Shown in pieces: positions 1-33,797 of a stretch of 43,829 nucleotides of DNA (its first letter is position 1; every line of letters begins with the position of its first letter). Position numbers and translations under genes: made by a program. This DNA comes from a virus: positions 1-43,829 of IMG/VR virus record IMGVR_UViG_3300024346_000138; one strand, 5' to 3'. A model generated the notes under the pieces. That model saw only the letters and a list, made by a program, of their open reading frames with translations. It was not told the origin of the DNA and ran no database searches.

Positions 1-885
1 AGCATTTTTAAAAACGTTAACTCCTTTAATAATTGTACCTAATCCAAAGTTGCCGCTGTTAATATCACCTAGTATACTTCCAATGCCACCTAATACTCCA
101 CCGTCACCAAACAAACTGTTTACTCCACCGCCGCCTACACCTAACGGACTTGGCGATTTATCATAGTGAGTAGTAGCAAATGTTGCAGGACTGTCTTCGC
201 CAACTGCACCTCTATCATACAATACATTTTCGTATACAAGAGTCATAGCATTTTCAGCAATGCCAGTTGTCTCGCTTTGATTCATAGTATCATGACCCCA
301 TTGTGAAATCATAGGATTTACTAATGTATATTCTGTATATTCGTGTCTAGCAAATTGATACAATTTTATATCTTTAAAGAACGGAAAACGTCTACTATTA
401 TCTAACCCGTATCTTAATCCGTTTGTTACTTCTTGGTACGTGCCTCTTGGATGATAACTGTCTTCAATTGTTGTTATATTTGAATCGTTAAAGTAATATC
501 GATAGTACGCTTCCATCAGCATAGTAGTCAACCCAAGATTGTCGTCGTGCATTCTTAGTTGTATAGGTTGATAGTCTACTCTTGTTTGTACATTCTTTTT
601 TCGATTATATTGATTTTTTGTAGAAACTTCTGCGGTATACTGCGGTAAGTCAACTTGTTTAACTAACATGTTTAACTCAGCTGTATGATTGTTTGACAGT
701 TTAGGAAATTGTTGTAATACAAGAGGGTTAAAAGTAAAATTTACAAAATAAAGAAATTTTACTTTAGGTGCTAGTCTAAATGCATCGTCTACATAAAGTC
801 TTTGAGCATGCTGGAAGTCACCAACATTGCCTCTAGGGTTAAGTGCTGCATTAAAAAAGTTATCTAAAAATCCATTAAGTTTCAT
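1..885 (-). CDS. Tail-tube-like virion protein, 3'-truncated by the window edge
   Basis: The frame is open from an ATG at 885 down to base 1, so at least 295 residues are present and the C-terminus lies outside. The N-terminus begins MKLNGFLDNFFNAALNPRG. The middle has a tail-tube-like order of strands: a 'KFLYFVNFTFNP' strand, 'MLVKQVDLPQYTAEV', 'VDYQPIQLRMHDDN', and later 'EYTLVNPMISQWGHD' and 'AMTLVYENVLYD'. The end visible here is Gly-rich (Gly-Val-Gly-Gly-Gly-Gly). It follows gp19 on the same strand but is separated from it by a terminator and its own late-type box. I infer a second tail-tube-fold protein, either a gp19 paralogue or something like the gp54 tube initiator. The fold assignment is tentative, but a structural role is likely from context. 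Confidence 0.6.
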   Translation of the reverse strand, partial: MKLNGFLDNFFNAALNPRGNVGDFQHAQRLYVDDAFRLAPKVKFLYFVNFTFNPLVLQQFPKLSNNHTAELNMLVKQVDLPQYTAEVSTKNQYNRKKNVQTRVDYQPIQLRMHDDNLGLTTMLMEAYYRYYFNDSNITTIEDSYHPRGTYQEVTNGLRYGLDNSRRFPFFKDIKLYQFARHEYTEYTLVNPMISQWGHDTMNQSETTGIAENAMTLVYENVLYDRGAVGEDSPATFATTHYDKSPSPLGVGGGGVNSLFGDGGVLGGIGSILGDINSGNFGLGTIIKGVNVFKNA

Positions 886-890
886 AAAAG

Positions 891-898
891 TATTTATC
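891..898 (-). promoter_or_regulatory. Late-type promoter box, 5 bases from the start codon
   Basis: The minus strand reads GATAAATA, then CTTTT, then the ATG of the truncated gene at 885. It matches the T4 late box TATAAATA except at the first base. A transcript starting 5-6 bases after the box would begin at the ATG and have no leader. No Shine-Dalgarno sequence fits between box and ATG. Confidence 0.6.
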
Positions 899-1631: not shown

Positions 1632-1639
1632 TATTTAGC
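1632..1639 (-). promoter_or_regulatory. Late promoter box for gp19
   Basis: The minus strand reads GCTAAATA, then CTTGT, then an A at 1626. That would start a 17-base leader containing the AGGAGAA ribosome site. Box and spacing match those of gp18. Confidence 0.65.
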
Positions 1640-5023: not shown

Positions 5024-5045
5024 CCGAAAAAGGGACCGAAAAGGG
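5024..5045 (+). repeat. Short G-rich direct repeat in the gp18/HNH divergent region
   Basis: CCGAAAAAGGG and CCGAAAAGGG stand one base apart just upstream of the HNH gene. The second copy ends in AAGGG, which could act as a ribosome site 9 bases before the ATG at 5055. C-rich runs just before could pair with the G runs, but no clean terminator forms. Role unknown. Confidence 0.4.
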
Positions 5046-5047
5046 CA

Positions 5048-5055
5048 GCTAAATA
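5048..5055 (+). promoter_or_regulatory. Late-type box overlapping the HNH gene start
   Basis: The plus strand reads GCTAAATA, whose last A is the A of the first ATG (5055). TGAGT follows, then a second in-frame ATG at 5061. A start of transcription 5-6 bases after the box would fall on the second ATG. The box is the same sequence as at gp18 and gp19. Confidence 0.5.
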
Positions 5056-5402
5056 TGAGTATGCGTCCATTATGTAAAAAATGTAAGAAAAAACCTTCTG
5101 CGATCAACTATCACAAAGATAATAGAACATTCTACCGAAGTATGTGCGAAAGTTGTTGCCGTACAGGCGGAGGAGCCAAAGGTATTCCTCGATGGCAAGA
5201 GAATGGTTATATTAAAAAGTCTAAATGTGAGAAATGCGGATTCAGTAGTAGAAACGAAAAACAGTTTGATGTTTATCACATAGACGGCAGATTAGATAAT
5301 TGTCGTCCTAGTAATTTAAAAACTATTTGTGCTAACTGTCAAAGAGTCCTACAGGATGAGGAAGTCCGTTGGCGTCAAGGTGACCTAATCCCCGATCTTT
5401 AA
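5055..5402 (+). CDS. Small zinc-binding HNH-type protein
   Basis: This 115-residue basic protein has four Cys-x2-Cys pairs: C7/C10, C31/C34, C58/C61 and C92/C95. The C-terminal half reads F-D-V-Y-H75-x-D77, then N82, N87-L and C92-x2-C95. This is the layout of a zinc-stabilised HNH endonuclease (treble clef with a catalytic His). The N-terminal CxxC pairs probably bind a second zinc. It could be a free-standing HNH nuclease or a DNA-binding remnant; activity is not shown. It is the only plus-strand gene between gp18 and gp14. Its 3' end overlaps the converging kinase gene by 71 bases. The start is ambiguous: ATG at 5055 has AAGGG upstream, while ATG at 5061 fits the late box spacing. Confidence 0.75.
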   Translation: MSMRPLCKKCKKKPSAINYHKDNRTFYRSMCESCCRTGGGAKGIPRWQENGYIKKSKCEKCGFSSRNEKQFDVYHIDGRLDNCRPSNLKTICANCQRVLQDEEVRWRQGDLIPDL

Positions 5403-5958: not shown

Positions 5959-6720
5959 TTATCCAATTAAGAAACCGTAGCCAGTTCCGCCCGGTACTGC
6001 TTGACTAACTTCTAGTTCTAACTTATCCATCTCTTGCTGAGCTTCAGCTTTTAGTGAATCACCATTAAGACTTGTACCGCCTTGTGGTCCTGCAATAGTA
6101 GCAAACTTTGAACGTGCTTCGCCTAGCATATATTTACAACCTGCTAGTGTATAATCTTTAATCCATTGTTTCGCAAGATAGTCGTTTAGTAATTCTGAAT
6201 CAGGACGATAGTTGTAAGCGTATAATAATACATTTTCGTTTGCTCTTGGACGCTGTAATATAGTTAATTTTTTAGTAGTGTTATTCCAAGTAAACTCTAT
6301 AAATGCGCCGAACATACGTCCTACTAATTCTTGATACCCTGCAAACATTTCATACGTAGCAAGCCCGCCCATTTGACTTGATCCACTTAAAAGGTATGTG
6401 TTTGTATAAGCAAGGTTAAACGGTTCGTGTAAACTTCCGCCGTCTCCACCGCCTGTACGTGAACCAATACTTCTACGATAGACTTTACGGATTTCCATCA
6501 CTTCACTTGGTAATATATAATCGTTTTGATCTTCAACTAAATCTAGAAATAAGTAACTTTCTTCTACACTTGCATCACTGCGTTGTCTAAAACGTGTAAG
6601 TGCCTTGGTCAATGCTGTGTCATAGTGGATAGGATCAAGTTCAACATCGACCATTCCTCCGCCTAAGAATGCATTAACGTAATCAAATATTTCTTGTTTT
6701 TGTGTTTGTAAATTTGCCAT
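5959..6720 (-). CDS. gp13: Neck protein gp13
   Basis: This 253-residue protein is one of the two T4-like neck proteins that close the filled head and connect it to the tail. It shares the T4 gp13 layout: an N-terminal helix and 'GGGMVDVELDPIHYDTALTKALTRFRQ' (compare T4 '[21 protein letters not shown]'), a beta-rich middle, a helical 'KQWIKDYTLAGCKYMLGEARSKF', 'EAQQEMDKLELEV', and the diagnostic C-terminal 'GYGFLIG' (T4 '...FGILVG'). It is slightly shorter than T4 gp13 (about 309). GGAGA precedes the ATG, and a late box at 6739-6746 drives it. It is transcribed divergently from gp14, unlike in T4. Confidence 0.9.
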   Translation of the reverse strand: MANLQTQKQEIFDYVNAFLGGGMVDVELDPIHYDTALTKALTRFRQRSDASVEESYLFLDLVEDQNDYILPSEVMEIRKVYRRSIGSRTGGGDGGSLHEPFNLAYTNTYLLSGSSQMGGLATYEMFAGYQELVGRMFGAFIEFTWNNTTKKLTILQRPRANENVLLYAYNYRPDSELLNDYLAKQWIKDYTLAGCKYMLGEARSKFATIAGPQGGTSLNGDSLKAEAQQEMDKLELEVSQAVPGGTGYGFLIG

Positions 6721-6738: not shown

Positions 6739-6771
6739 TATTTATCGTAGTTGCTATCGTTACGATAAATA
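6739..6771. promoter_or_regulatory. Palindromic pair of divergent late boxes between gp13 and gp14
   Basis: TATTTATCGTA (6739-6749) and TACGATAAATA (6761-6771) form a perfect 11-bp inverted repeat with an 11-base centre. Each arm contains a GATAAATA late box. The left arm reads toward gp13 on the minus strand (then CTATA and a GGAGA ribosome site). The right arm reads toward gp14 on the plus strand (then TGTAT and ATG at 6777). The symmetry makes both neck genes fire from one compact divergent promoter. Confidence 0.65.
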
Positions 6772-6776
6772 TGTAT

Positions 6777-8000
6777 ATGCCAAGATTAAGTTTATATAAA
6801 CCCCAAAGGGGAAATGATTACAAGTTTATGGACAATAGAGTCTATGAAATGTTTACCATCGGCGGTACTGATGTGAATATACACAAGTACATAGGTACTG
6901 ATGACGGTGAATCTGTAAAAGATCACACCCAAATACAAGACATACTTTTCTTAGAAAATAGAGACCGAAAATACGATCCAGACATATACACAATACGTTG
7001 TGTCTATAATGTACAGGATATTGATTTTGATTTAAGTCAATTTGGGTTATTTTTAAGTAATGATACACTGTTTATGACTATTCATATTACAAGAAGTGTT
7101 GCTGCTCTTGGAAGAAAAATTATGAGCGGCGATGTTATTGAATTGCCGCACTTACTAGACGAACATGCCGAAAATGATTTTGCTACAAGTTTGAAAAGAT
7201 ACTATGTAGTAGAAGATGTTAATCGTGCAGCAGAAGGGTTTTCTCCTACATGGTATCCTCACTTATATAGACTTAAATTAAAACAGTTAGTTGACTCGCA
7301 AGAATTTGCAGATGTGTTAGTACGTCCTGAAGATGATGATATTTTTATAGGTGATTACGATAGTAGCATAACATACGAAATTGGGCAAGTTGTAAAATAT
7401 AAAGGAAAATTGTATAAAGCAACGGCTCAAACTATTGGTAATACTCCTACTGATGTTTTTAATTGGGGCGAATATACTGAGAATACTTTGAGAGATCTTT
7501 TAAGTACATACGAAAATGAAATGCAAATAAACAATGCTGTACTTTCAGAAGCAGAAGCAGACGCTCCGGAAAGCGGATTTGATATTTCTCATTATTATAC
7601 TCTTGCTGTAGACGAAAACGGAAGAACACAAGTTGATACTGTAGAAGATCCAAATGCCAGTAGGCCAGACAGATCAGGTTATGCAGGATATTTGGTGTCT
7701 GGTGATTCTCCTCCTAATGGTACAGCATTTGGTAGTGGTACTTCTTTTCCTAATATTAACGAAAAAGACGATTATTTTTTAAGGACTGATTATCTGCCTA
7801 ATAGACTATTTAAATATGACGGATCTAGATGGATGAAAGTAGGTGACGATGTACGCATGACAATGACTAACGGCGTAAATCGACAAACACTTAAAGGAAC
7901 ATTTATCAATAATGTTAAAACAGATAATATCGGTGGCGAAGCTGTACAAGAAAGACAATCTCTTAGTAAAGCACTTAGGCCTAAGGCGGATGATGTATAA
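6777..8000 (+). CDS. gp14: Neck protein gp14 with an embedded carbohydrate-binding-like module
   Basis: This 407-residue T4-like neck protein works with gp13. The start chosen is the ATG at 6777 ('MPRLSLYKPQRGNDYKF'), from my memory of marine T4-like gp14 N-termini and because it sits 5 bases after a late box. ATG 6771 is 2 codons upstream, and longer starts would translate the promoter. Family features are 'NDTLFMTIHITRSVAALGRKIMSGDVIELPHLLDEH' and 'YYVVEDVNRAAEGFSPTWYPHLYRLKLKQL'. T4 gp14 is about 256 residues. The extra length includes 'ITYEIGQVVKYKGKLYKATA', a Trp/Tyr-rich module resembling CBM5/12 repeats in the giant fibres, and 'RLFKYDGSRWMKVGDD'. It overlaps gp15 by one base (TAATG), suggesting coupled translation. 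Confidence 0.88.
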   Translation: MPRLSLYKPQRGNDYKFMDNRVYEMFTIGGTDVNIHKYIGTDDGESVKDHTQIQDILFLENRDRKYDPDIYTIRCVYNVQDIDFDLSQFGLFLSNDTLFMTIHITRSVAALGRKIMSGDVIELPHLLDEHAENDFATSLKRYYVVEDVNRAAEGFSPTWYPHLYRLKLKQLVDSQEFADVLVRPEDDDIFIGDYDSSITYEIGQVVKYKGKLYKATAQTIGNTPTDVFNWGEYTENTLRDLLSTYENEMQINNAVLSEAEADAPESGFDISHYYTLAVDENGRTQVDTVEDPNASRPDRSGYAGYLVSGDSPPNGTAFGSGTSFPNINEKDDYFLRTDYLPNRLFKYDGSRWMKVGDDVRMTMTNGVNRQTLKGTFINNVKTDNIGGEAVQERQSLSKALRPKADDV

Positions 8001-13409: not shown

Positions 13410-13417
13410 TATTTATT
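13410..13417 (-). promoter_or_regulatory. Late promoter box for the two-gene fibre operon
   Basis: The minus strand reads AATAAATA, then CTATACAAGGAG before the ATG at 13391. It overlaps the stop codon of the upstream unknown gene, so the fibre pair can be transcribed late, independently of the halogenase operon. Confidence 0.6.
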
Positions 13418-20365: not shown

Positions 20366-20373
20366 TATTTAGT
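20366..20373 (-). promoter_or_regulatory. Late promoter box for the two unknown genes
   Basis: The minus strand reads ACTAAATA, then TTTTC, then A at 20360, giving a leader of about 21 bases with TTAGGAGA before the ATG at 20339. Spacing is the same as at gp18 and gp19. Confidence 0.6.
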
Positions 20374-33789: not shown

Positions 33790-33797
33790 TATTTATC
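33790..33797 (-). promoter_or_regulatory. Late promoter box for the 2907-residue fibre gene
   Basis: The minus strand reads GATAAATA, then TATAT, then A at 33784, followed by a leader with TGGAGTTAAG before the ATG at 33766. It probably also serves the downstream fibre cassette to 20373, because no other late box or terminator is visible between those genes. Confidence 0.65.

Follow-up and report, generated by a model that had tools for sequence, protein, structure and literature searches.

Late promoters of the T4 type lie against start codons in marine phages and point to leaderless late mRNAs

Analysis of a marine T4-like phage fragment and its relatives pointed to late promoters of the T4 type that are fused to start codons, and the late mRNAs made from them would be leaderless, with initiation independent of a leader. 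We assign this reading a probability of roughly 0.84; it is an inference from sequence, and no RNA 5' end has been mapped. The phage structural genes concerned would then probably be translated without a ribosome-binding leader, the mode of translation itself being inferred. The DNA under study (the window) is the whole stretch of 43,829 bases from a virus record. It carries T4-like structural genes (sheath, tube, a second tube-like gene, a head-tail adaptor and a gp14-like structural gene) together with a gp15-like gene and baseplate or fibre genes.

A preliminary description of the window had noted a late box exactly 5 nt before the ATG of three genes, at 885 on the minus strand and at 5061 and 6777 on the plus strand, and all three arrangements are present in the sequence. 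The features are as follows, with N4 and N5 denoting spacers of four and five bases.

1 to 885, minus strand: tail-tube-like gene, cut by the window start (PHROG 13438)
891 to 898, minus strand: its late box, GATAAATA; 66 of 79 homologues have box-N4/N5-ATG
883 to 890, minus strand: spacer CTTTT and ATG (ATG 885-883), predicted +1 at 885
5061 to 5402, plus strand: HNH endonuclease-like gene (PHROG 14736/2255, weak)
5048 to 5055, plus strand: its late box, GCTAAATA; 40 of 42 homologues have box-N4/N5-ATG
5056 to 5063, plus strand: spacer TGAGT and ATG, predicted +1 at 5061
6777 to 8000, plus strand: virion structural gene, the "gp14" of the preliminary description (PHROG 11591)
6764 to 6771, plus strand: its late box, GATAAATA; 60 of 79 homologues have box-N5-ATG
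6772 to 6779, plus strand: spacer TGTAT and ATG, predicted +1 at 6777

In T4 the late box TATAAATA lies at -13 to -6 (PMC1524935), and the predicted +1 is therefore the sixth base after the box, which is the A of the ATG in the three genes. The late box reads NATAAATA in S-PM2 and CTAAATA in Aeh1 (PMC1524935, PMC2984593). It had also been stated that the three ATGs lack a normal ribosome site. No Shine-Dalgarno (SD) sequence was seen there, but this absence is forced by the geometry: because the box at -13 to -6 fills the place of the SD, its lack is no independent evidence. At the HNH gene an AAAGGG ends 15 nt before the ATG and an in-frame ATG (5055) overlaps the box, and at the gp14-like gene an in-frame ATG (6771) overlaps that gene's own late box; neither of these earlier ATGs is kept in relatives.

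Two side observations concern the same genes. Just upstream of the HNH late box, at 5027-5047, the window carries a conserved AAAGGGACC-N-AAAAGGGCA that recurs in most homologues (L161-L192, L203), and the loci L193 and L194 keep the AAAGGG motifs with the box missing. This element could be an operator, a decoy or the remnant of an insertion site. The gp14-like protein (6777-8000) gave a weak match to a carbohydrate-binding module (PF02839, 25.8 bits, just under the cut-off).

Late boxes stand at nine gene starts in the window, three fused to the ATG and six leadered, and the leaders of these six carry GGAG or AGGAG.

1632 to 1639, minus strand: leadered late promoter GCTAAATA of gp19, leader AACAGGAGAAAATATAA
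4985 to 4992, minus strand: leadered late promoter GCTAAATA of gp18
6739 to 6746, minus strand: leadered late promoter GATAAATA of the 6720 gene (head-tail adaptor)
13410 to 13417, minus strand: leadered late promoter AATAAATA of the 13391 gene
20366 to 20373, minus strand: leadered late promoter ACTAAATA of the 20339 gene
33790 to 33797, minus strand: leadered late promoter GATAAATA of the 33766 gene

The preliminary description had the box followed by five bases and an A that fits +1 at four of these, and rightly so: gp18 (GCTAAATA-CTACT-A), gp19 (GCTAAATA-CTTGT-A), the 20339 gene (ACTAAATA-TTTTC-A) and the 33766 gene (GATAAATA-TATAT-A). The two that it omitted have C as the sixth base, namely the 6720 gene (GATAAATA-CTATA-CGGAG) and the 13391 gene (AATAAATA-CTATA-CAAGGAG). 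Among leadered promoters, the sixth base was A in 37 of 50 from the cultured phages HTVC008M, Mosig and Melnitz and in 62% of 26 from T4; in the window's clade it was only 44% A, with 22% G (n=89). The late boxes of the leadered 6720 gene and the putatively leaderless gp14-like gene are divergent and 17 bp apart (6739-6771), and this pair was found again in many relatives.

The late box is not enriched in the window (161 matches with at most 1 mismatch vs 160 expected), but its placement before start codons is. When 14 boxes with the prefix NA, GC or AC were considered, 3 had an ATG at exactly +5 that opens an ORF of at least 60 aa; after other all-A/T hexamers such an ATG was met at 9 of 4932 places, which corresponds to 0.026 expected. 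A window-only count of the pattern that ignored ORFs was weak (3 observed; simulated mean 0.63 and largest value 4 in 200 simulations). Proof of the box-ATG pattern rests on relatives.

We scored the box-ATG distance in six records (the window, G001, G002, G005, G006 and G007; 722 kb), which hold 213 boxes with the prefix NA, GC or AC, and counted ATGs that open ORFs of at least 60 aa. The observed spacing was bimodal: 31 cases fell at 4-5 nt and 5 at 6-16 nt, and a second, broad rise began at 17 nt. Of the 31, 13 come from the three genes used to find the records and 18 from others, including gp25 and virion proteins, and about a quarter of the usable boxes (31/120) adjoin a start codon. Such scoring over the genome and its relatives had been proposed in the preliminary description; the zone of 6-16 nt proved almost empty, and some gp25 and gp2 loci have 6-8 nt. 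With any two leading bases, TAAATA gave 26 cases at 5 nt vs 2.6 expected and 18 at 4 nt vs 3.2 expected, the expectation being taken from 14 other permutations of its letters. The 4-5 nt peak exists for ATG and not for GTG/TTG (4 at 5 nt vs 0-6 elsewhere). The large terminase gene of G007 has its ATG 5 nt from a GT-prefixed box. Among 80 gp25 loci of the clade, 63 were N4/N5, 11 had 6-7 nt, and 6 had no box but an SD-like AAGGA/AGGA. A separate 4-nt class, often GGTAAATA-CAAT-ATG, was seen in G001, G002, G005, G006 and G007 at gp25, HNH and a virion gene of 655-890 aa, and suggests a +1 one base nearer the box. Weak phmmer matches to gp55 were obtained for ORFs in G001, G002, G005 and G006 (E 3e-6 to 3e-8), and phmmer gave no gp55 match in the window and G007, both of which are fragments.

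Start regions were then read at homologue loci from viral contigs, with the best 80, 80 and 43 taken for the gp14-like gene, gene 885 and the HNH gene. All three sets go back to genes that had already looked leaderless, and they contain many near-copies: there are 30, 27 and 12 distinct start regions in the respective N5 groups. Besides its N5 loci, the gp14-like set (n=79) had 17 with box and leader and 2 cut by contig ends; the gene 885 set (n=79) had 64 N5, 2 N4 and 13 with box and AGGAG leader; the HNH set (n=42) had 32 N5, 8 N4 and 2 without a box. No intermediate spacing occurred among gp14-like or gene 885 loci. According to the preliminary description, a spacing that varied freely between related genomes would refute the leaderless reading; in the homologue sets it was 5 nt, with a minority of 4, and did not vary freely. 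Alleles without the 4-5 nt spacing mostly have an SD leader: leadered gp14 and 885 alleles keep the box and the same five bases, their leader, with AAGGAG or AGGAG, runs from the predicted +1, and all but one have an SD. When mode was placed on the protein trees, we observed 4 changes for gp14, at least 3 by starred branches, and 1 for gene 885. Gene 885 of the window is two N-terminal codons shorter than in most relatives, and the 5-nt spacing is still kept.

These data bear on two other explanations. The box could be a real late promoter that lies close to the ATG through genome compaction, with most protein made from longer RNAs that begin further upstream and the leaderless RNA a minor species. 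This would suit the compactness of phage genomes and possible read-through transcripts, and the AAAGGG motifs upstream of the box are conserved in HNH homologues. However, compaction alone would neither empty the 6-16 nt zone nor put AGGAG leaders into departing alleles, and longer transcripts would carry the box, not an SD, before the AUG; we regard this explanation as unlikely. The other possibility is that the A/T-rich octamer is no promoter at these genes and instead works at the RNA level, where it would enhance ribosome binding without an SD; A/U-rich stretches before AUG can aid SD-less initiation. Such an enhancer would not account for a peak that is confined to TAAATA among the permutations of its letters, for a box that is retained in leadered alleles at least 17 nt from the start, or for spacer bases that are alike in the leadered and leaderless classes (e.g. 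GTNNT in pelagiphages), and we consider it very improbable.

Support for promoter-start codon fusion also came from cultured phages. In the Pelagibacter phage HTVC008M, 11 genes have the box exactly 5 nt before the ATG (12 if any prefix is allowed vs 0.84 expected), among them genes for a gp25-type baseplate wedge, tube cap, DNA end protector, tape measure, tube-type protein and CsgF. In NC_020484 these ATGs are at 6280, 7562, 11972, 16007 (minus strand), 18916 (minus strand), 19456, 31132, 49760, 75559, 75830 and 142360. At 25 DNA-end-protector loci of the HTVC008M type, 18 were N5, 6 had 8 nt and 1 was without a box. Mosig has 6 cases at 5 nt vs 1.5 expected, with the annotated start confirmed in 4 of 4 checked (two near 60 kb were left out), and Melnitz 3 vs 0.4 expected, confirmed in 2 of 2 checked. 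All three phages have gp55-like ORFs with strong phmmer matches. The tube-type protein is predicted to be leaderless in both HTVC008M and Mosig, and gp25 in both the window's clade and HTVC008M. The annotated starts speak to a further possibility, namely that the true starts lie downstream with ordinary SDs and that the ATG beside the box is there by chance. Homologues of gene 885 do vary by a few N-terminal residues, but the fused ATGs of HTVC008M are the RefSeq start codons in 11 of 11 cases, and from codon 2 onward the gp14 protein sequence is preserved while its codons change synonymously, which leaves this possibility hardly credible.

Elsewhere, no 5-nt case was found in Syn9 or KVP40, and the counts for S-PM2 (1, 0.4 expected) and PA5oct (3, 1.6 expected) were weak. 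T4 had 3 with any prefix (0.7 expected), and its sole match with an accepted prefix sits inside mobB. The cyanophage P-SSM2 had 4 at 5 nt vs 0.27 expected; it was not counted as support, three of these having poor boxes. In the nearest cultured relatives by gp14, TAAATA-N5-ATG counts were near or little above a reversed-pattern control (Phosso 3/2, Atu_ph07 15/9, PA5oct 15/12, SCTP-2 24/19, 121Q 6/11), and none of the gp14 homologues of these five is box-N5-ATG; that of PA5oct reads GATAAATA-CCTAT-AACTAGGAG. Cr30 and phiM12 gave no match. From the counts across phages, the mode would therefore be present in the window's clade and in the marine Kyanoviridae of heterotrophs, two groups that stand far apart. 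Judged by base patterns alone, it is hardly seen in the cyanophage, enterobacterial and Vibrio types examined.

The leadered gp14 alleles have an unusual start. In 16 of 17 loci AGGAG is followed by ATT (7) or ATC (9) as codon 1 (L017, L019, L029, L032, L033, L036, L044-L047, L051, L052, L057, L058, L067 and L080). Of these 16, 13 have no nearby in-frame ATG and 3 have one two codons earlier, 1 nt after AGGAG; the upstream codons vary and the protein is conserved from codon 2. The only leadered allele with ATG (L018) lacks a clear SD. Leaderless alleles keep AUG, while leadered ones with a strong SD would have acquired AUU/AUC starts repeatedly; the switch between modes occurs at no fewer than 3 places in the tree. 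This suggests, as a hypothesis, that gp14 output is kept low whichever mode is used. IF3 acts against leaderless starts and likewise against AUU/AUC starts. A wider idea, which we offer only tentatively, is that this marine T4-like family uses the fusion as translation control, with only late RNA translated, and keeps the gp14-like gene under weak, factor-sensitive initiation in either mode; if so, the opposition of IF3 to both modes means that neck assembly would be IF3-responsive. A reading by copy number, in which low-copy proteins are leaderless, is only a partial fit: the leadered state of gp18 and gp19 in the window is in line with it, but HTVC008M and Mosig have a leaderless tube-type protein.

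In the mechanism that we propose, a gp55-like late sigma factor on the host RNA polymerase would read the fused box and RNA would begin on the A of AUG or no more than about 3 nt away. The predicted leader is 0 nt for N5 and at most 3 nt where the spacing is 6-8, and initiation on such a late mRNA would take place at the 5'-terminal AUG without need of a leader or an SD, as by 70S ribosomes. The same genomes also appear to use the ordinary form, in which box and five bases are followed by a leader that contains an SD and measures at least about 12 nt. Since the box occupies the SD place, longer transcripts, such as read-through from earlier promoters, would be poorly translated at fused genes and protein would come only from late RNA; the fusion would in this way probably tie translation to late transcripts, a function that is likewise inferred. 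The claim that the three window genes give leaderless late transcripts gains support from the spacing kept in relatives and remains an inference with unmapped 5' ends. The preliminary description knew of no account of this mode for T4-like phages, and no description was found in open papers among the matches listed.

Comparable arrangements exist in other systems. Leaderless mRNAs of mycobacteria are reportedly a comparable bacterial case, and lambda cI transcribed from PRM is a leaderless phage mRNA. In poxviruses the late promoter element TAAAT overlaps the ATG, and polymerase slippage adds a poly(A) leader; a late promoter element adjoins the start codon there too, but the system is unrelated and the marine phages have no A-run at +1. 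The marine promoters resemble the gp55-dependent late promoters of T4, whose activation needs gp33 and gp45, in the box, its predicted place relative to +1, the late structural genes and the gp55-like factor, whereas in T4, KVP40, S-PM2 and Syn9 the late boxes lie 12-40 nt or more before the ATG, with a leader. A paper on phage AR9 describes phage transcripts as often leaderless (PMC5312081), and there, as in lambda cI, the AUG is at or near the 5' end; these cases involve single repressor-type genes or other polymerases and are not known to be a repeated feature of T4-type late promoters. Among mapped 5' ends of Lactococcus cremoris, no leader measures between 4 and 14 nt (PMC10986495), and the spacings missing from the clade agree with this empty zone between two leader-length modes. 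L. cremoris differs in that its ends are mapped and belong to host genes with ordinary sigma promoters, whereas the phage lengths are predicted and depend on a late sigma factor. In T4, translation from late RNA only is achieved by hairpins over the SD in I-TevI, segB, soc, e and gene 25 (PMC2988022). The probable purpose is alike, and gene 25 and homing endonucleases occur both in that list and among the leaderless genes (gp25, HNH). The marine fusions differ in having neither hairpin nor SD, the promoter itself taking the SD place.

A search of bacterial genomes with gp14 led to two contigs of one Neomarinimicrobiota MAG (L475 and L476; PBPT01000082.1, 153 kb, and PBPT01000016.1, 335 kb), which have a 56% gp14 homologue, identical flanks and box-N5-ATG. 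These are probably phage contigs binned into the MAG; we did not conclude that Neomarinimicrobiota are the host of the clade, because binning does not prove a host. Leaderless translation is testable in a cultured pair, HTVC008M or Mosig on Pelagibacter HTCC1062. For gene callers, box spacing provides a start signal at genes without an SD. Prediction of late promoters has been reported as "unsuccessful in PMP genomes" (PMC7029224), and leaderless late genes may explain this failure, a link that we infer. The textbook picture of late transcription in T4 is one of leadered mRNAs that depend on an SD. In ocean phages many late genes seem to have lost this leader, core genes for baseplate, tube and DNA end protector among them.
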